Positions 10,147 to 42,779 of a stretch of 64,000 nucleotides of DNA are shown in pieces. Source of the stretch: Clostridia bacterium (GTDB taxonomy: Bacteria; Bacillota; Clostridia; Christensenellales; UMGS416); contig JAFGUF010000027.1 in assembly GCA_016938675.1 (NCBI GenBank), forward strand, positions 62,001 to 126,000. Direction: 5' to 3'. Within the stretch, counting starts at the first letter, position 1, and the number at the start of each line of letters is the position of its first letter. Under the pieces are notes generated by a model, which saw only the letters and a program-made list of their open reading frames with translations, did no database searches and was not told where the DNA came from. The position numbers were made by a program, and so were the translations under genes.

Positions 10147-12276
10147 ATGTCTAAGTATTTGAAATTTATAATATTGATAGTTGCTTTATTAATAATATTT
10201 TCAGGCTGCTCCAACAGCTCATTTGTAAACGAAAAAATCAACATGGTGCTGGCGCAGAATAATGCCAGCGATGAAGCCGTCGAGTGGCTGATATATAATA
10301 AGGACTTGGTTGCCCCCGTTCTTGTGGACAGGCTCTCATCATCCAATAAAAATAAGGTAAGCGAAACTAAAGAGCTGCTTAGCCTGATGGGCAAGGACGG
10401 GATTACAATAGTCCTTAGTGATTACCAGTCCCTAAGCGAATCCGGAAAGGCTGCCCTTGCTGATGTACTGGCCGAGCAGATGAGCAAAGATGCCATGCTG
10501 CAGCTGCTTGCTATGAGCGCCCTAGACGGCGGATTCGATGTCAGCGTTGCAGCGCTTATAAATATGGGGGACTCTGCTGCTCAGTTTCTGGAAACTCTCC
10601 TATATCAAGAGAAATATTATTCCTGCGTAAATGCGGTAATAGCAGGCAACTCACAGCGGGTAATTGACGACATCATTCCAATGGTAAGCAACCAAAGTTC
10701 ATATATCCAAAATCGGGCAATGGAGATCATTGCTCTCTCTGATAGTTCCGTAATAAGCCCCTTCGTCCAGAATGTGCTAAACGACACTTCTCTTAGCAAT
10801 GAAAAAGCGATAAGGATATCCTCAACTGCCCTGAACAATAATAAGGATGTAGCAATAGATGAAATAATAAATATGGTCGCGCTTGGAAACACCAATCCTG
10901 TAACCTCAGCGACTATGATATATGAACTTTCAAAGGAAAGTGACCTTGGCACCATATTTGAAAAGTGCGCAAAAAGCTCGAATGCGGTAAACACAAACGA
11001 CATGCTAAAGGAGCTGGTGCGCCAGGCAGGCGTGCCCCGCATAGTGGAAACAGCAATGAACAGCAATTCAACAGAGACCATTACTTCCATATCCTTTGCT
11101 CTCGCCTCATATGATTTCTCTACGGAGGCATTTATAGAAGTTCTTAATTCACTTACTGAAAGTGATACTATAAATTCAACCATCTATACTCTTGCAAGCA
11201 AACTGATATACGACCCTGTATTTAAAGGTGTGGCGCAATCCGTGATAGCAATGGATGCAGCGGCACTAAACAATGCCTTGCAGCTGGAGGGAGCAAACCC
11301 AAAAACCATAGGGGACGCTCTTTCCCGGACGTCTGAGAATTTAACAATTTCTCAAAGAATAGATACCATGCTGAATGCAATGGACAACATCAGCGCGACA
11401 CGCACGATGATAGTCTTAGCTTATGGCGAGGATGGCGTATATCCGAAACTTGTATGGGACAGGTACGCAGGCCCAGATGCCGCTCTATCAAAAAGCGCAA
11501 TGGACGTAATACTGGAAGCAACCTCAATGGGGATAAAGTTTAAATATACTGATATGGATTTTTCGCCCTATGCAGCGAAGCTTGTGCAGGATTTAAATTC
11601 CCATAACTCCGACACAAAGAATATCGCGCTGCAGATATTAAGCAAAATACCAGAAGGTGTGGAGCACCATGAATTCTATCAGAAGGTATACGAAGGCTAC
11701 AAAGACCAGTCTGTATTCACAGTTTTATGCTGGCATTATGTGGGCGAAGGCGCAAAAAAACTGAACCTGAGCATTGCAGGAACTGACACTGTAATTGGCG
11801 AAATAGCATATGAAATGAAGAGCGTAAAGGTAACCAACGTAGACAAAAGCGACTTTTTAGATTACGAGGGGATGATTCTTCAGAGCATCAACGCTCTCGG
11901 ACTTAAGGTAACCGATACAGCAACAACAAAGCTGGTAATAACCATCAACGAAGTCCCTGTTTCAAAGCAATACAGAGGGATGATGGGCAGTAGCTATCTT
12001 GGCGCAAAGTGCACAACAACAATTGATATATACATATCTGGTGAAAAAGTGAACACCGTTTCCGGATATTATGAGATACTTCCGCCAGTGGACAACCCTG
12101 CTGGAGAAAACGTATATGAATACAAAAACAATCCCGAAGACGCCCCCATGGAGACGCCATTTATAAACAGCTACATTCAAGCGCTATACAAAGCATTCGG
12201 CGAGGATGTGCTTTATGGAACATATCAGTACGACAGGCTTGCGACGCTAGAGGTAGGATCAGAATTATGGAATTAA
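10147..12276 (+). CDS. Uncharacterised lipoprotein, predicted alpha-solenoid
   Basis: A 709-residue exported lipoprotein. The signal peptide covers about residues 1-21, with lipobox FSGC and lipidation at Cys21. Residues 30-550 are almost all short amphipathic helices in a repeating pattern such as AVEWLIYNKDLVAPVLVDRL and AALINMGDSAAQFLETLL, which resembles HEAT-type solenoids. Residues about 555-700 are beta-rich, with Thr-rich strands and few helices, and could be a separate domain. I do not recognise the family. It is anchored outside the cytoplasmic membrane. The following aminotransferase overlaps it by 10 bases, so the two are coupled. Confidence 0.7.
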   Translation: MSKYLKFIILIVALLIIFSGCSNSSFVNEKINMVLAQNNASDEAVEWLIYNKDLVAPVLVDRLSSSNKNKVSETKELLSLMGKDGITIVLSDYQSLSESGKAALADVLAEQMSKDAMLQLLAMSALDGGFDVSVAALINMGDSAAQFLETLLYQEKYYSCVNAVIAGNSQRVIDDIIPMVSNQSSYIQNRAMEIIALSDSSVISPFVQNVLNDTSLSNEKAIRISSTALNNNKDVAIDEIINMVALGNTNPVTSATMIYELSKESDLGTIFEKCAKSSNAVNTNDMLKELVRQAGVPRIVETAMNSNSTETITSISFALASYDFSTEAFIEVLNSLTESDTINSTIYTLASKLIYDPVFKGVAQSVIAMDAAALNNALQLEGANPKTIGDALSRTSENLTISQRIDTMLNAMDNISATRTMIVLAYGEDGVYPKLVWDRYAGPDAALSKSAMDVILEATSMGIKFKYTDMDFSPYAAKLVQDLNSHNSDTKNIALQILSKIPEGVEHHEFYQKVYEGYKDQSVFTVLCWHYVGEGAKKLNLSIAGTDTVIGEIAYEMKSVKVTNVDKSDFLDYEGMILQSINALGLKVTDTATTKLVITINEVPVSKQYRGMMGSSYLGAKCTTTIDIYISGEKVNTVSGYYEILPPVDNPAGENVYEYKNNPEDAPMETPFINSYIQALYKAFGEDVLYGTYQYDRLATLEVGSELWN

Positions 12277-29670: not shown

Positions 29671-30858
29671 ATGGCGTATAAATTTGTACAAATTTCAGAT
29701 GTAGGCTTCAATCACTCTTTATCCACGGATTCGGAGATAAACAAGTATGTTGAAAATCTCCGCAGGGAAAGCTTCATTAAAGTTATTGATTTGTGCATCG
29801 AAGAGAAGGCAACAGCGCTGCTGATCCTAGGCAATCTATACGATGAGCAACATATCACCTTCGAAAATGCCAGATTGATTAAAAAGAGCTTTGCGCGGCT
29901 GAAATCCAACGACATTGCCATAGTTTATGCACACGGCAGCCTCGACAAGGGATATTTCTTAGACAGTATAGAAAACGACATAATTGAGATAAAAAACAGA
30001 TACACAAGCCAGGTGTATTCCCTGCCTTTCGGAATCGACTCTGTAAACTTTGAGGGAATAGGGTATAGCAAAAGGCTAGTTTTTCAGGATGAATACCTAG
30101 AACCTAAGGATGATGACACCCCGTCAGTAGGGCTTATGTACATAGACAGCAGCCTCTATAAGGAAGAAACACTGGAGCTCCTGCATAGAAGGCTGGAGAA
30201 AAGCACTGCGCTCTACTGGGCATTGGGCGGCAGCGACGGCGAGCGCGCATCCGTGCAGGGCACGAATTTCTACTACGCGGGGCACCTTTGCCCCAAGCAG
30301 TCAGACGGGCCAGGATGCCTGATGATAAATATTACAAACAAACTCAAGGTCAGCGTAAGCCCTGTTTCTTTATGCGATGTAGCCTTCACCACAATCAGGG
30401 TGGATGACGCCTACAAAAGCAAGGATATCTATCAGCTGATGGAAAGATGCGCGGACCTGATAATGAAAAGCAAAGTACCGGGATGCGAAATGATAGTCAA
30501 TCTTGTTCTCTCCGGGCCTTGCTCATGCTATAATCAATTGGTAACCCACCGTGAGGAGCTTCAGGGAGAAATCTCCAAAATAACCGAAACGGCGCTTAAT
30601 ATAAACATAAATAATCTCACAAAGGCAATTAAGCCTGAAGGGAGAATAGAGGAAGAGAGCCATATTACGGAGCTTTTGGATGAGTGCATCAGGCTGTATG
30701 ATGATGAAGAGCTATATAACCGCACCATAAACAGCCTAAAAGCAAAAAGGGTGTTCTACGGCAGGGAGGGCTCCACGGCGGACAAAAGAAAAATATTAGA
30801 AGGCGTTGATTCTATACTATTAGAATCTGCAATTAAGGAGGACGGCCATGATTATTAA
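29671..30858 (+). CDS. Degenerate SbcD/YhaO-like metallophosphoesterase
   Basis: A 395-residue protein with the layout of YhaO/SbcD DNA-repair phosphoesterases, but most metal ligands are replaced. The usual DxH is D10-V-G12, the usual GDLYD is GNLYD (Asp to Asn55), and GNHD is GSLD (Asn to Ser90, His to Leu91). The later His in a GLLHG-like strand is Tyr157, and the final GHxH is GGSD (Gly187, Asp189). The surrounding strands (ALLILGNLYD, ALYWALGG, YYAGHLCPKQ) still align, so the fold is probably kept and the nuclease activity probably lost. It overlaps the YhaN-like ATPase by 11 bases, so it may act as a structural partner of that ATPase. Confidence 0.8.
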   Translation: MAYKFVQISDVGFNHSLSTDSEINKYVENLRRESFIKVIDLCIEEKATALLILGNLYDEQHITFENARLIKKSFARLKSNDIAIVYAHGSLDKGYFLDSIENDIIEIKNRYTSQVYSLPFGIDSVNFEGIGYSKRLVFQDEYLEPKDDDTPSVGLMYIDSSLYKEETLELLHRRLEKSTALYWALGGSDGERASVQGTNFYYAGHLCPKQSDGPGCLMINITNKLKVSVSPVSLCDVAFTTIRVDDAYKSKDIYQLMERCADLIMKSKVPGCEMIVNLVLSGPCSCYNQLVTHREELQGEISKITETALNININNLTKAIKPEGRIEEESHITELLDECIRLYDDEELYNRTINSLKAKRVFYGREGSTADKRKILEGVDSILLESAIKEDGHDY

Positions 30859-33800
30859 AAGCATTTCTGCGGAAAATTTCGGTAAATTCGACAGGTATAC
30901 TGTGAATTTAAGCGACAACATAAATGTTTTTTATGGCGACAACGAAGCCGGCAAAACCACATTGTATGAAATCATATCAATTCTGCTCTTCGCCCCGTCT
31001 ACGGATGAAGAGATGGCCGAAAGCAACAAGCTGATAAAATCCGATGAAAAGTACGCCCGTGTGTATGCTATTATCAATCTTGAAGGCAAGGAAATATCCA
31101 TTGCCCGAGAAATATATAATAATAATACAAACCTTTCAATAGCGGATCAGGATAATGTTTCAAGCCTGGGCAATGTAAACGTTCCTTTTATCGGTGACTT
31201 AACGAAGGATATGTATGAAGCCTTCCATACAATAGATTACTATAACATGGCTACCATAACCAACAATGTATGGCAGCAAATAATAAAAGTAATAGATGAA
31301 TCCCACGGCGCTCCCAGAGTGACGCCCGATTACAGTTCCTCAGATGAAGAAAAACCGGAGAAAATAAAATCCAGCTTCGAAGATGAAATAAAGAAAAGAG
31401 AAGAAGAGAAAAAGCAGCTTGAAGACCGCCTTAGAGAGGCGCAGAAAATGCAGAAAAAGATGATATCCAATCAGGATAAGATAGATGATCTGCTGAGCGA
31501 GCTTGAAGATGTGGAAAACAACATTGAGCTGGAAAGCTCATATCTGAAAGAAGCTCATAAAATGAACCAGATACGAGAAACAATCAAAAAGACGCAGGAT
31601 CTTACTTTGGAGCTTGAAAAGTACAAGAATTTAAAGCCTTGGATGCCAAATCTCAGAGAGTATTATGAGCGGCTTGTTCTATATGCCGAAAACAAAGCGA
31701 ACGGAATAGAAAATCCGCTAGAAATGTTTGACGATTTGGAAAGAACCGCTGCCGAAGAGCTGGTCTACGGCGACGCAGAGCCCGACCTTTCTTCAGCTGA
31801 AGAAAAACCAGTGGAAGAAAAGCCTGAAATAGTAGAAGAAAAACCTGCTAAAAAGCGTGTCAATTTGTATGATAATATTAAGCTGCCTTCAGAAGATGAC
31901 TATATAATGGCGAAAAAGCGCATAGACAAGTTCATAAAGGAAAACTACATGGATAATCCGGAAAAGATGACTGAAGTCGCCGAATTAAATGACGAGCTGG
32001 AAGACGTGCTGCCTGAAGAAATCATTGAAAATACCATAGAAGAAAAACCAGAGCCGGAAATAAAGCCGCTGGAAATAAGGAAACCCAAGGATATGACAAA
32101 GAAAGCAGACGAAAGCGAAGATAAAACTGCCGTTAATAATTACGGCCAAACCAATCCATATTCTGATAATTTCTTCCCCAACATGGGAAGGGTTAATTAT
32201 TCAGGCAAAAACATGCCTGAGGCGGATGAAGACGACGACGAGGACAAATATTCACCCAGCTCTTCTAATGACTTGCCTAAACAGAGCAAGAAAGTCGACG
32301 AGAAAGATATGAACACAAAAGGCGATAAAAAGGAAGAAGATATCCTTAAAGCTGAGCAGTTCCTTAATAGTATCAACATGCAGGAGATAATTGCAGCGTC
32401 AAAGGAGACCGTCGAAGTCAGCGAAGAGGCTCAGGAAGAGATAGACAAAGCAAAATTAAGGTATAATATAATTGCCAAAAGGATATTCAGCAAGGATGTT
32501 GAAATGTCTGAGCTTTCTGATAAATTAAAAAAGCTGGATACAAATGTTATATACAAAGCAATAGTCAAATATAAAGGCCTTGCGCAGAAACAGCGTTCAG
32601 CCGAGCATATCACGGATGCGCCGACTGAAAAGAAACAGGCTGCTTCCAGCTCATCCTTTGCGCTTGGCGTTGTAGCATTCTTCAGCCTGCTTCTAGGGCT
32701 AGCTTGCTTCTTTATTGACCAAATAGTATCAATATTCTATGATATAGAAATCATAAAAACCATAGGCGAAGTGCTTAGCGACATGCCGTTAAGCGATATA
32801 ATTCCCGGTAACGTGCTTTCAGGCGGGGCCTTCTCGCTAATCGCCGTTCTTTTGATTGTGGCAATAATGCTGGGGAATGACAAAGGCGAAGTTGCAGCAG
32901 AGACCATAAACATGAGCGAAGTGGAGCTGGATGAACTCAAAAACAATATACGCCTTGCCAAAAGGGAAGTTGTAGATTCCCTTCAGGGGTTCCCGATTCC
33001 GGCACCTTACCTTGATAATCCAAACAACTCCATAATATCCATTATAAATGAGTTGCGGGAAGCCGAAGAAACATACAAGGAACTGATTATTGAAAGTACA
33101 CTGCCGAAAAACGAAAACTACAGGGCATTATGGGCATTGTCAAAGAAAGTACTTCCTGAGCAGGAGCTAAGCAGCGACTTGTTTGACAACATTGCCAAAA
33201 TCCGCCTGAAAATTAAGGATTTTAAGGACGAAAAAGCCGAACAGGATCGCAAGCTAAAAGACGCGAAAATGAGAATAGACCTAATGTCTTCTTCCCCGTC
33301 TTCAAGGAAAAGTGAATCATTGGATCCTATGGATAAATTCGAGAGCTTCAAAAGCACCACACCCGGAACATCACAATTTTCTTCCGGAAACTATTCTGGC
33401 GGGCTTGATGAAAATCAGTTCCCCGGAATGGACCCCAAGCAATCACCTGAAGCCTCTCAGCCAAGTGCATTCGGAATACCTGAGCCAAGCAATACCGGAA
33501 ATATTCCACCCCAATCTGAGCAATCTGATAACGATACTTCATCGCCGTTTAATTTCCCTGGCCAAGGCAACCTGGATTTCTCCCAGCCTGAGCGCAAGGA
33601 TTACCCCGAGAACAGCCCTGCTTTAGGTTCGGCCAATAATTTCGGTTACCCTTCAGATACAAGCGGAATTACAAAAGCAGAAAACGACACCGGTTACCCC
33701 TCTGACGGCGGCATATTCGGAACTCCGAAAAATCCCGACTTTTCAATGGATACTTCTCAGTTTGGCGCTGCAAAGGAACCCTCATATCCTTCAGAAAGCC

Positions 33801-35539
33801 CTGCACAGCCTGACTTTGGGTTCAAAAAGCCCGATATTGAAAATGAGAGTCCAACACCTAAAACGGATGACTTTGGTATTCCCGGAATAAACAGATACTC
33901 AGGCAGCACCACGCCGGAAACAGAAACCGCCTTTAAAATTCCGGAAACAGACCAAAAGCCATCTTTCATTAGCGAACCGGTAAAAGATGCATCCGAAGAG
34001 AGCAATGATTTCGGTATACCCGGAATAAGAAGGTACACAGGCAGCGACACCCAGCAGCAGCCTGAAGCTAATAAAGGATCTGATTTTGGTATTCCCGGAA
34101 TAAACAAATATAGTGAGCCTGTCTCAACACCTCCGGAAACAGAAGCTAAACCGGAAGAAGAAAATGAATTCGGAATTCCGGGCATACACCGGTATACAGG
34201 CAGCGCTCCTGCAGAGGAAAAATCTCAGCCGCAGCAGAGCTCATTTGGCAATCTTCCCGGAATCGACAAATTCTCCAATAGAAATGAGCAACCAGCAGAA
34301 AAAACCTCTGACACTCCATTTTTCGTGCCTCCTTCTGCGGTTCCAGCCGAAGCTGCAGCGGCAGCTACAGGCGCAGCTATAGCCAGCGGCCTGCCGGGTC
34401 TTGATATGTTCTCCAACAGAAATGAACAGCAGAACAAACCCGTGCCTGCAGAAGAGCAGCCCGTAGAATCAGCGCCAGTTGAGGAGACACCACCAGAAGA
34501 ATCAGAAAACGAATTCGGAATCCCAGGAATTACCAAGTACCCTGCATACAATCCTGATGAGCAGAAGATAGAAGCGGCTGTTCCTGAAATTGAAGAGGAG
34601 CATATAGCAGTGGATGAACCGGAAGAAACAGCGCCTGTTGAGGAAGCAGAGGAGCCTGTTCCCGTAGTACCTGCTGAAAAAGACCGCCGGGAAAAAGAGC
34701 TGGATAAAATGCTGGAGATACTTGGAGACGACCCCGAATCGGCAATTCGCGAAGTTGAAGACATGACCAGAGAACTCCACTACGAAATAATAAAGAGAGA
34801 CAAATCTATGGCTGAGCTTCTCAAGCTCAACGACGCCGCAGTAAGACTGTCTACATTGTCTTCAAACAAATGGCCCTATAAGCAAAAAGCAATTGATGCC
34901 AGCACGGAAAGAGTAGATGACCTAGAGGCTGATAAACTGAAGCTTAAGCGCCATATAGAAATGCTTCTGGGAAAAATGACAGATGTAGAATATGAAGATA
35001 CTCCACAGGCAATATCTGATAGACTTAAAACTATTGAAGAAGAAATAGAGCAGCTTAAGCTGGAAAACGACAAACATGCTATAGCCGAAGAAATTCTTGA
35101 AAAGAAAAAGCTGCTTGACATGTCATCAGGCCCCGACAGATCCTACATAATTGATGATACCAGCGAATATATGAAGGAGCTTACCTTAGGCAAATATGTT
35201 CAGGTTAAGATTAATGATAATTTAACAGGCCTTGCAATCTGTGATAAAGATGGACAGTGGTTCGATACTACAAAAGACAGATTGTCTCAAGCAACGAGAG
35301 AGCAGCTATATTTGGCACTAAGGGTTTCAATAGCTGATTTATTCGATGAAAAGTCGTTGATCTTCCCAATGTTCTTTGACGAAGCACTGATCACCTGGGA
35401 CAAGAGACGAATGAAAGCCGTAATGAGACTATTGAGCAAGATGTCCATGCATAGACAGGTAATAATATTCACATGCCATGACTGGCTCAGAGATATGATA
35501 GGTGATTATTTAATAGGTGCTAAAATTATTGAAATGTAG
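30848..35539 (+). CDS. YhaN-like AAA/SMC-type ATPase with membrane segments and repeat-bearing linker
   Basis: A 1563-residue protein, much longer than YhaN of Bacillus (about 960). N-terminal ATPase half: Walker A YGDNEAGKTT at residues 29-38. Coiled coil at about 175-260. A Glu/Pro/Lys-rich stretch follows at about 300-520. Two hydrophobic helices lie near 602-625 and 659-676. A long Pro/Ser/Glu/Gln-rich linker at about 840-1240 carries seven FGIPGI-type motifs. A second coiled coil lies at about 1290-1430. C-terminal ATPase half: ABC-like signature LSQATREQLYLALR (about 1479), Walker B FPMFFDEALITWD with Asp1511-Glu1512, and switch His in FTCHDW. The ends should join into an SMC/Rad50-like head, with the middle tied to the membrane. 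Partner: the overlapping SbcD-like protein. Confidence 0.85.
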   Translation: MIIKSISAENFGKFDRYTVNLSDNINVFYGDNEAGKTTLYEIISILLFAPSTDEEMAESNKLIKSDEKYARVYAIINLEGKEISIAREIYNNNTNLSIADQDNVSSLGNVNVPFIGDLTKDMYEAFHTIDYYNMATITNNVWQQIIKVIDESHGAPRVTPDYSSSDEEKPEKIKSSFEDEIKKREEEKKQLEDRLREAQKMQKKMISNQDKIDDLLSELEDVENNIELESSYLKEAHKMNQIRETIKKTQDLTLELEKYKNLKPWMPNLREYYERLVLYAENKANGIENPLEMFDDLERTAAEELVYGDAEPDLSSAEEKPVEEKPEIVEEKPAKKRVNLYDNIKLPSEDDYIMAKKRIDKFIKENYMDNPEKMTEVAELNDELEDVLPEEIIENTIEEKPEPEIKPLEIRKPKDMTKKADESEDKTAVNNYGQTNPYSDNFFPNMGRVNYSGKNMPEADEDDDEDKYSPSSSNDLPKQSKKVDEKDMNTKGDKKEEDILKAEQFLNSINMQEIIAASKETVEVSEEAQEEIDKAKLRYNIIAKRIFSKDVEMSELSDKLKKLDTNVIYKAIVKYKGLAQKQRSAEHITDAPTEKKQAASSSSFALGVVAFFSLLLGLACFFIDQIVSIFYDIEIIKTIGEVLSDMPLSDIIPGNVLSGGAFSLIAVLLIVAIMLGNDKGEVAAETINMSEVELDELKNNIRLAKREVVDSLQGFPIPAPYLDNPNNSIISIINELREAEETYKELIIESTLPKNENYRALWALSKKVLPEQELSSDLFDNIAKIRLKIKDFKDEKAEQDRKLKDAKMRIDLMSSSPSSRKSESLDPMDKFESFKSTTPGTSQFSSGNYSGGLDENQFPGMDPKQSPEASQPSAFGIPEPSNTGNIPPQSEQSDNDTSSPFNFPGQGNLDFSQPERKDYPENSPALGSANNFGYPSDTSGITKAENDTGYPSDGGIFGTPKNPDFSMDTSQFGAAKEPSYPSESPAQPDFGFKKPDIENESPTPKTDDFGIPGINRYSGSTTPETETAFKIPETDQKPSFISEPVKDASEESNDFGIPGIRRYTGSDTQQQPEANKGSDFGIPGINKYSEPVSTPPETEAKPEEENEFGIPGIHRYTGSAPAEEKSQPQQSSFGNLPGIDKFSNRNEQPAEKTSDTPFFVPPSAVPAEAAAAATGAAIASGLPGLDMFSNRNEQQNKPVPAEEQPVESAPVEETPPEESENEFGIPGITKYPAYNPDEQKIEAAVPEIEEEHIAVDEPEETAPVEEAEEPVPVVPAEKDRREKELDKMLEILGDDPESAIREVEDMTRELHYEIIKRDKSMAELLKLNDAAVRLSTLSSNKWPYKQKAIDASTERVDDLEADKLKLKRHIEMLLGKMTDVEYEDTPQAISDRLKTIEEEIEQLKLENDKHAIAEEILEKKKLLDMSSGPDRSYIIDDTSEYMKELTLGKYVQVKINDNLTGLAICDKDGQWFDTTKDRLSQATREQLYLALRVSIADLFDEKSLIFPMFFDEALITWDKRRMKAVMRLLSKMSMHRQVIIFTCHDWLRDMIGDYLIGAKIIEM
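33866..34546 (+). repeat. Seven FGIPGI-type peptide repeats within the YhaN-like gene
   Basis: Motifs of form [D/N/S][D/E]FGIPGI-x-[R/K]-Y-[S/T]-G start at Phe1009, 1055, 1080, 1108 and 1223. Two variants, FGNLPGIDKFSNRNEQ (1133) and GLPGLDMFSNRNEQ (near Leu1182), complete the set. Spacing varies from 25 to about 49 residues, and the codons differ between copies (for example TTTGGTATTCCC versus TTCGGAATTCCG). Confidence 0.9.
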
Positions 35540-40269: not shown

Positions 40270-41400
40270 TTATTTTATGCCTTGAGGTTTTTTGCCCTTA
40301 ATATATTCTATTATTGAGTATTGTATTTTGGGTTTCCTATATATGTCCTTCAAATCCAAATTAAAAAACAATTCCTTTGCCGCTTTAATTTTCTTTATTT
40401 CGTGTTCCAATCTTTCAGCGTCCAAACCAAGCAGGTCATATTTGAATCTAAAGTCTTCTATGCCAACTCTGCCTAATATAATGTTGCCTTTTTTTATATA
40501 TCGGCTTTGCTGCATTTTAATTGCCTCCTTGCGAAGTATCTCATCATATCCAGTTTTCATTATTACGGCAAGAATTATCACTATGGCATATAAAATACTT
40601 ACAATCATTGCTCCTAAATGTACAAACAACCCATAAAGCGAGAATGTTGAATACGCTCTTGCGAAGATATATATTACAGGGAAAAGTGCGGCAAAGACAA
40701 AAATCCATCTTATTGAATATGCTTTGTTCATATACTTTTCTATTTTTTCAAGTGTAAGGTTTTTATATACCACTAGCTCTCTTAGTATCTCCTGCGATTC
40801 TTCAAGGAGCTTTTTTGTTTCTCCCTCATAATCAATCAGCCTCAGTCTCGCCGGGCTGTCGGCGCCATATCGCGCAGCATAGCTGTCTCTATATGCACTA
40901 ATAATCAGTCGAGGCTCATATAGAAATGCACCTTGTTCTATTCTTTTCAAGCTCCTTGGCAGAATAACTTCCTCAAGATTGATGCAGTTTGAAAATGCAA
41001 ATCTGCCTATTTCAAGTATTCCTTCCGGCACTGCTATCTTTCTGGCCCTGCTATTATAGGAAATCAGTACATGGTTTTTTATTTCCGCTGTCCATACTTC
41101 CGACGACACAAGGTTATATAGATATTCACTGTCGGGTTTCAGCTCAAGTGCCTTAGTAAGATTACTCCTGAATTCTTCACTTCGGTTTGTGCCTTCGTTA
41201 AGAGCTTGCTCAACGTATTTGTAAAGCCGCGGGAAGCTTTCAAATCCCTCAAGCTCTACTGGAAAGTTTATACTAACCTCTTTAACGTCTCCAGAGAAAT
41301 CTATCCTGCTTCCGCAGTGGGTACAATACCCTTTTTCCATCTCGGTATCTATTTTTAGCTCTCCTCCGCAGTGAGGGCAGGTTGCCGCAACATATGGCAT
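40270..41400 (-). CDS. Zinc-ribbon / LRR_5-like membrane protein (copy A)
   Basis: A 376-residue protein. An N-terminal zinc ribbon (CPHCGG and YCTHCGS, residues 8-34) is followed by a helical region. Next come two or so BspA-type leucine-rich units at about 115-165 (ISYNSRARKIAVPEGILEIG, FAFSNCINLEEVILPRSLKRI, GAFLYE). Two membrane helices lie at about 232-285, and a charged helical tail ends the protein. The function is unknown. Its neighbour, 53 bases upstream on the same strand, has the same plan, so the pair arose by tandem duplication. Confidence 0.75.
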   Translation of the reverse strand: MPYVAATCPHCGGELKIDTEMEKGYCTHCGSRIDFSGDVKEVSINFPVELEGFESFPRLYKYVEQALNEGTNRSEEFRSNLTKALELKPDSEYLYNLVSSEVWTAEIKNHVLISYNSRARKIAVPEGILEIGRFAFSNCINLEEVILPRSLKRIEQGAFLYEPRLIISAYRDSYAARYGADSPARLRLIDYEGETKKLLEESQEILRELVVYKNLTLEKIEKYMNKAYSIRWIFVFAALFPVIYIFARAYSTFSLYGLFVHLGAMIVSILYAIVIILAVIMKTGYDEILRKEAIKMQQSRYIKKGNIILGRVGIEDFRFKYDLLGLDAERLEHEIKKIKAAKELFFNLDLKDIYRKPKIQYSIIEYIKGKKPQGIK

Positions 41401-41453: not shown

Positions 41454-42572
41454 CTAATACTCATCCAGCCCTTTTGGCCTTTCGCCGAACATATATGCCA
41501 ATAATGACAGATGAACATATGCATTCCTTAAAAATTGTCTTTTATCGATGTTGAGTATTTGCTTCTTAATATTTTCCAGGTGTTTTGCTTCGTACTCCAA
41601 ATCCACATTGCTGACTTCCCATATATTTTTAAGATATCTGAAATCAATTATTCCAAGCGGTCCTAAAAGATCGTTGCACTTTTTATTAAATTTCATTACC
41701 TGATTTTTTACTGCTAATTTTCTGTATACTTCAATGTAGCCTTTGCTTAAGAAAGAAAATATAATAACTAAGCCCAAAAAAATCAAATAGTACACAAATC
41801 CATCAGCAGATAGAAATCTTGTCGGTACTATGATGCTAGGAAGTATTATCAGCACAAAAAAAACTATCGGAACAACAATTCTTCCTGTTATATGGCCGCT
41901 GTATCGAGCTTTTATTTCTGATACCAGCCTGTCTTTATACTCAACTATCTCCTTGAGCTCTTGCTCGATTTTCGTTATCGCTTCCTGATTGTTTTCATCA
42001 TCATCAATAATCTTTAAGAAAGCAGGACTGAAAAGCGCATACCTTGCAGCGAATGTATTCTTATAGGCAGAAATCGTCAGTTCACCTTCTTTGAAAAATG
42101 CATTTTCTTCAATATTTACAATTGTTCTGGGCAGCACTAGCTCTTTAAGCCTAGTGCATCCTTTTAGTGAAAACCTCTCTATGCTTACTACACAGTCCGG
42201 TACAACGATTCTTTTTGCATTGCTTTTGTATTCCAAAAGCCTTCCGTCCATTATTCTGGCATTCCATATCTCAGAGGACTGAAGGTCATATAAATACTGA
42301 TTATTTGGATCCAGCTCCAGCGCCCTGTTAAGCCTGTTTCTGAACTCAGGTGTTCTGTTCATGCCGAAATCAAGGTCCTTTTTTATAAGCTTAATTAGGT
42401 TATCAAGCTTTGCAAATCCAGCAATCTCAATCGGCCCGACTATTTTTACCTTCTGAACAGCATCTTTGAAATAAATAGGAGTTCCGCAGTGTGCACAATA
42501 GCCTTTTTCCATCTTTTCATCCAGCTGCAGATCTCCCGCACAATTTGGGCATCTTGCTGCTACATATCCCAT
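41454..42572 (-). CDS. Zinc-ribbon / LRR_5-like membrane protein (copy B)
   Basis: A 372-residue paralogue of the next gene with the same order: zinc ribbon (CPNCAG, YCAHCGT), MNRTPEFRNRLNRALELDPN, LRR_5-like strands (YKSNAKRIVVPDCVVSIERFS, CTRLKELVLPRTIVNIEE), two membrane helices at about 225-280, and a charged tail. The EMEKGYC/EKMEKGYCAHCG segment and the N-terminal YVAA-CP motif are shared. I start at ATG 42572, with GGAGG five bases upstream; the earlier ATG 42584 lies before that site. It is probably cotranscribed with copy A. The function is unknown. Confidence 0.75.
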   Translation of the reverse strand: MGYVAARCPNCAGDLQLDEKMEKGYCAHCGTPIYFKDAVQKVKIVGPIEIAGFAKLDNLIKLIKKDLDFGMNRTPEFRNRLNRALELDPNNQYLYDLQSSEIWNARIMDGRLLEYKSNAKRIVVPDCVVSIERFSLKGCTRLKELVLPRTIVNIEENAFFKEGELTISAYKNTFAARYALFSPAFLKIIDDDENNQEAITKIEQELKEIVEYKDRLVSEIKARYSGHITGRIVVPIVFFVLIILPSIIVPTRFLSADGFVYYLIFLGLVIIFSFLSKGYIEVYRKLAVKNQVMKFNKKCNDLLGPLGIIDFRYLKNIWEVSNVDLEYEAKHLENIKKQILNIDKRQFLRNAYVHLSLLAYMFGERPKGLDEY

Positions 42573-42779
42573 ATCTACCTCCAATTATTAAATACCAAAT
42601 ATTATACTCATTTTATCATAGCAGCTATTAAAATGCACGGTAATTAGCCATTAACATACATCTCACGGTTTTAGATGTCATAAAATTTTGCTTAATTCTT
42701 ACTTCCGGTTTTGCAGTATCAGCAGGAAAAAATTTGCTAGTAAATATTACTAAATATAATATACAACGGAATTAAAATA

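Follow-up and report, generated by a model that had tools for sequence, protein, structure and literature searches.

INTRODUCTION

The SbcCD and Mre11-Rad50 complexes associate a split ABC-type ATPase carried on coiled coils with a partner of the Mre11 fold. In the YhaN (SbcE)/YhaO (SbcF) systems of Firmicutes (Pfam AAA_27) the phosphoesterase gene comes first and overlaps the ATPase gene; YhaN is also made of N- and C-terminal ATPase halves, and it carries a membrane hairpin about halfway along its chain. We found no open-access paper on this hairpin. According to a 2019 survey, how SbcEF contributes to break repair is poorly characterised (PMC6452273).

Here we describe a YhaO-YhaN-like pair located in a 64,000-nt stretch of DNA (hereafter, the window) from the draft genome of a clostridial lineage (2.62 Mb in 45 contigs). 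It shares the gene order, the overlap, the split ATPase and the membrane hairpin of the YhaN systems. Unlike its family relatives, the ATPase is at least 600 residues longer and has two disordered tethers, one with an array of short peptide motifs, and its partner is a dead phosphoesterase. Compared with SbcCD and Mre11-Rad50, the differences are a membrane hairpin in mid-chain, at the position of the coiled-coil apex of Rad50, and a partner devoid of nuclease residues. The array resembles eukaryotic docking arrays and the bacterial FtsZ C-terminal peptide in that a short conserved peptide is set in a variable disordered chain; it departs from other arrays of short linear motifs in that it sits within an SMC-like ATPase and that its peptide matches no known motif among those tested here.

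RESULTS

A giant YhaN-type ATPase interrupted by two tethers

The ATPase is encoded by a 1563-codon open frame at 30848..35539 (+ strand, as for all features below unless stated). Pfam models AAA_15, AAA_27 and AAA_23 match its N-terminus above cut-off, AAA_27 with 42.2 bits (cut-off 22) for the N-terminal half, which has Walker A; SbcC_Walker_B at the C-terminus scores 20.9 bits, below its cut-off of 27. The motifs that define a YhaN-type ATPase all fall in invariant columns of the family alignment: Walker A (GDNEAGKTT, residues 30-38; 30935..30961) and, in the C-terminal half, the signature LSQATREQ (residue 1478) and Walker B PMFFDE (residues 1507-1512), which together span 35279..35383. 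The C-terminal lobe is modelled by AlphaFold2 with a pLDDT mostly above 85. The LSQGT to LSQAT change in the signature first seemed odd; LSQAT turned out to be frequent in Bacillus YhaN relatives. As in nearly all of the 80 loci of YhaN relatives, where an SbcD-like ORF is found, mostly directly upstream, the ATPase gene is preceded by an SbcD-like gene which overlaps it. On a tree (a quick one, with long branches) the protein is sister to that of the nearest relative of the source genome, the MAG 'Clostridiales bacterium RS_7_3' (G002/L094; SH-aLRT 96), inside the clade of its own family (99). The YhaN-like identity put forward in the original prediction is thus borne out by Pfam, the family alignment and the tree.

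The chain runs in the order N-terminal lobe, coil, first tether, coil, membrane hairpin, coil, second tether with the array, coil and C-terminal lobe, so that both coiled-coil arms are broken by a disordered tether, one on each side of the hairpin. The latter is predicted from two hydrophobic segments, at residues 605-623 (32660..32716; hydropathy of 2.6 across 19 residues) and 656-674 (32813..32869; 2.58 across 19 residues), and most Firmicute YhaN relatives have one at the matching place. No CxxC, and thus no zinc hook of the Rad50/SbcC type, is present in the ATPase translation, where residues 605-674 form the predicted hairpin instead.

The composition profile reveals two low-order regions, at about residues 285-495 and 820-1285; tethers are mostly missing from the aligned relatives, whose length is of ~510-1230 residues. 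The first tether, in the N-terminal arm (about residues 285-495; 31700..32332), is acidic, rich in Pro, Glu and Lys, and appears in the family alignment as an insertion that most relatives do not have. The second, in the C-terminal arm (residues 836-1272, i.e. 437 residues; 33353..34663), contains 14% P, 12% E and 10.5% S and is absent from all relatives (family alignment; 80 YhaN relatives). It was modelled by AlphaFold2 without secondary structure and with a pLDDT below 50 nearly throughout. The model was made from a single protein with no homologues across the linker, in which case a low pLDDT says less about disorder than it normally does: it supports disorder and does not prove it. Composition and model nevertheless agree with the disordered linker that had been proposed.

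Elsewhere in the window, two neighbouring paralogues on the - strand (40270-41400 and 41454-42584) each have a Cys-rich N-terminus resembling a zinc ribbon, a BspA-type LRR segment and a pair of hydrophobic helices, and a gene at 10147-12276 (+) encodes a lipoprotein-like protein of 709 residues which has no Pfam match and whose first half is apparently made of helical repeats.

A Mre11-fold partner with a degenerate active site

The gene found upstream (29671..30858), which overlaps that of the ATPase by 11 nt, encodes a protein of 395 residues. Its AlphaFold model (pLDDT 79) resembles Mre11 and SbcD, and its best Foldseek match in the PDB is the Mre11 of P. furiosus (E 8.8e-12, probability 1.00). 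The phosphoesterase-like neighbour mentioned in the original prediction is therefore confirmed, by motif alignment as well as by structural match, as a protein of the Mre11 fold. Its active site is another matter: across phosphoesterase motifs I-V, whose alignment is approximate when they have diverged, DGNSLDYGD replaces DHDNHDHHH, i.e. two of the nine residues are kept and seven are lost. The metal ligands and catalytic residues of an active SbcD, Mre11 or YhaO nuclease are thus not there.

Such a loss is not the general case, since 71 of 84 aligned partners keep all nine residues. Four are lost in the G002 orthologue (L094:918-2111), three to six in six Pirellulaceae and four in one Lysinibacillus; degenerate partners lie upstream of YhaN in L095, L098, L100, L101, L113, L119 and L168. 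Mapped on the quick, long-branched ATPase tree, these losses take four changes or more; degeneration of the phosphoesterase, as read from the aligned motifs, has therefore recurred (this lineage, Pirellulaceae and one Lysinibacillus). A link between a dead phosphoesterase and a disordered linker was looked for in Pirellulaceae and rejected: in these proteins the Pro-rich sequence forms C-terminal tails instead of linkers in the arms, and is without such a motif. In four of them (L095, L100, L101 and L113) the tails, at about residues 1020-1150 of the ORFs, share an acidic D-x-[T/D/E]-[E/D]-F-D-[A/P/S]-E-L-x-[F/Y]-E element, which may be a separate short motif.

The source genome carries a second YhaO-YhaN pair (contig 37, L029:3987-7933), in which the phosphoesterase site is intact and the ATPase, of 900 residues, has no inserts. 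Because this separate intact pair is kept, the copy in the window may have been free to take on a new role. The original prediction mentioned neither the catalytic decay of the partner, nor the membrane hairpin, nor the disordered tether in the other arm; of what is added here to the observation of the motifs, the degenerate phosphoesterase tells us most.

A repeated peptide in the second tether

The hexapeptide FGIPGI occurs exactly five times in the ATPase, at residues 1009, 1055, 1080, 1108 and 1223 (first nucleotides 33872, 34010, 34085, 34169 and 34514), with start-to-start spacings of 46, 25, 28 and 115 residues. All five cores have D or E just before them and x-[R/K]-Y just after: DFGIPGINRY (33869..33898), DFGIPGIRRY (34007..34036), DFGIPGINKY (34082..34111), EFGIPGIHRY (34166..34195) and EFGIPGITKY (34511..34540). 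The repeats noticed originally are thereby confirmed; the seven copies then counted are these five plus two diverged ones, of the form PG[I/L]D[K/M]FSNRNEQ, which share the FSNRNEQ tail and sit between exact copies 4 and 5: FGNLPGIDKFSNRNEQ (residue 1133; 34244..34291) and GLPGLDMFSNRNEQ / LPGLDMFSNRNEQ (residue 1182; 34391..34429). On its upstream side the array fades into half-motifs FG[I/Y/T]P, which the original prediction had overlooked, namely FGIPE (residue 875; 33470..33484) and the weaker FGYP (residue 932; 33641) and FGTP (residue 957; 33716).

The array is not due to chance. A 6-mer present five times in the linker compares with at most two occurrences in 2,000 shuffles, and FGxP is found 8 times for 0.28 expected from composition-preserving shuffles. 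FG dipeptides, which are spread along the entire linker and also lie outside the exact motif, number 11 where composition predicts 2.0, a 5.4-fold excess reached in none of 20,000 shuffles.

Pairwise comparison of the five FGIPGI cores gave a pS of 0.73 (34 synonymous differences for 46.7 sites) and a pN of 0.00 (zero differences for 133 nonsynonymous sites). Codon identity between copies was 0.43, close to the 0.37 obtained when codons are drawn independently according to local usage. Tandem Repeats Finder reported no tandem array across the motifs, and in codon usage and GC3 the linker resembles the rest of the gene. Recent tandem duplication of the motifs is ruled out by the codon evidence. 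Since synonymous sites are saturated and nonsynonymous change is zero, the copies, as DNA, are old, and what keeps the peptide is purifying selection and not slippage, in line with the original prediction that codons differ where residues are kept. This constraint is deduced solely from copies within one protein, because the motif is in no other species examined; gene conversion homogenising the copies would also mimic it, which is unlikely given the saturated synonymous sites. The linker's only recent-looking slippage is an alanine-rich stretch, AAAAATGAAIASG, at 34344-34384 (3.4 copies of a 12-nt repeat).

Distribution of the array

The genome collection contained seven members of the family, none of the same genus. 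Neither the family genomes nor about 790 genomes sampled across the order and phylum contain the array. The strict pattern was found in 0 of 397 other genomes across the phylum; the relaxed one gave single matches in 6 of 395 other genomes of the order, against two matches there for the background control (the pattern read backwards). None of 80 YhaN relatives from GTDB genomes contains FGxPG. In the family genomes, FGIPG[I/L] occurs once or twice per genome, mostly in short chance frames, and the two genuine proteins that have it (a permease and an NfeD-like membrane protein) are globular. A search of the source genome itself with the linker and a degenerate pattern brought up no second protein with the motif in a disordered context: the pattern matches fell mostly in short chance frames, and the rest in ordinary proteins, an ABC-type permease among them. 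No PDB sequence, plasmid or phage matches the linker, and a contig search with the ATPase of the window alone as query returned no relatives.

As far as can be seen from these sequences, the array is limited to this species or genus. Absence of the repeats from close homologues together with neutral divergence had been named as what would count against a selected peptide: the repeats are indeed absent from every homologue examined, but the divergence between copies is far from neutral.

DISCUSSION

The ATPase retains Walker A, signature and Walker B motifs which look intact and are conserved, and its partner has kept its reading frame and the Mre11 fold in spite of the loss of seven of its nine active-site residues. 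If these conserved ATPase motifs, the lost nuclease site, the membrane anchor and the selected repeated peptide are considered together, the most economical reading would be an ATP-driven scaffold: a membrane-anchored, Mre11-Rad50-like YhaO-YhaN pair equipped with a multivalent docking array, a proposal to which we give about an even chance. The array is plausibly a binding array, and repeated binding of a partner by the motif copies is the natural inference. FGIPGI-x-[R/K]-Y would be the docking peptide, left accessible by a linker that the model shows as disordered. With five to seven copies, the flexible tether could recruit several molecules of a single folded partner or, alternatively, hold one oligomer with high avidity; this partner would most likely act in trans. 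The bound cargo would be kept near the membrane and the ATPase head, whose ATP-driven opening and closing might position or release the cargo (or DNA) instead of cutting, with the dead phosphoesterase serving as a structural subunit.

The main rival is binding in cis, where each FGIPGI peptide would dock on the ATPase head or the degenerate phosphoesterase, and the array would act as a clasp, folding the tether back and adjusting its length. Short disordered motifs do regulate the eukaryotic MRN complex (Nbs1 and Rif2 motifs). Array, dead phosphoesterase and broken coiled coil are brought together in one operon, and no other protein of the genome has the motif in a disordered context, all of which would suit a clasp; the G002 orthologue pair, however, has a partly degenerate phosphoesterase and no array, and no motif is ordered in the AlphaFold model, which covers the linker and the C-terminal lobe. 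On balance we regard docking in cis as possible, though improbable. Less likely still is that the array consists of cohesive stickers (FG, aromatics, polar spacer) by which linkers cluster or condense at the membrane with no specific folded partner. The linker-wide excess of FG beyond the exact motif and spacers rich in P, E, S, G, N and Q are what such stickers would look like, but aromatics alone would then suffice, and yet the whole FGIPGI-x-[R/K]-Y is kept, with a core pN of zero.

The original prediction had also noted a loose likeness to the FtsZ tail and, from it, a speculative link to division or membrane proteins. In such a reading the motif would mimic the C-terminal peptide, recruit binders of the FtsZ tail such as FtsA or SepF and tie the complex to division. 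The regular expression [D/E][L/F]x[I/V]Px[F/I]x[R/K], devised post hoc, fits both and among window proteins is matched by the five copies only. Set against the end of the organism's own FtsZ (DDDDLDVPPFLRRKR), the I/V-P and R/K positions are kept and the FLR core is not: in terms of the Acidic-L-D-[I/V]-P-x-F-L-[R/K] consensus, the Asp before I/V-P is changed to G and the FL pair after it to I and a polar residue. Scoring the window proteins (about 18,700 positions) for similarity to the FtsZ tails of the family placed the five copies only at ranks 8 to 128. The link is not supported, and we consider mimicry very improbable. Equally improbable is a mere low-complexity spacer grown by duplication, with motif copies as functionless leftovers: it would fit an array seen in one species among those examined and the recent-looking 12-nt poly-alanine repeat, but it is already refuted by zero nonsynonymous against saturated synonymous differences in the cores, unless gene conversion or codon-level effects explain this pattern.

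Little is known of what membrane-anchored YhaN proteins do in the cell. A dead nuclease partner combined with a conserved, bait-like array offers a direct way in, as the peptide could be used to fish out its partner. More tentatively than for the scaffold itself, we suggest an ATP-gated, nuclease-dead scaffold whose array serves a specific partner and, given the repeated active-site loss, that YhaO-YhaN complexes acting as scaffolds alone may represent a functional class that recurs. If distant bacteria have lost the phosphoesterase site again and again, these complexes would be able to do part of their work without nuclease activity.
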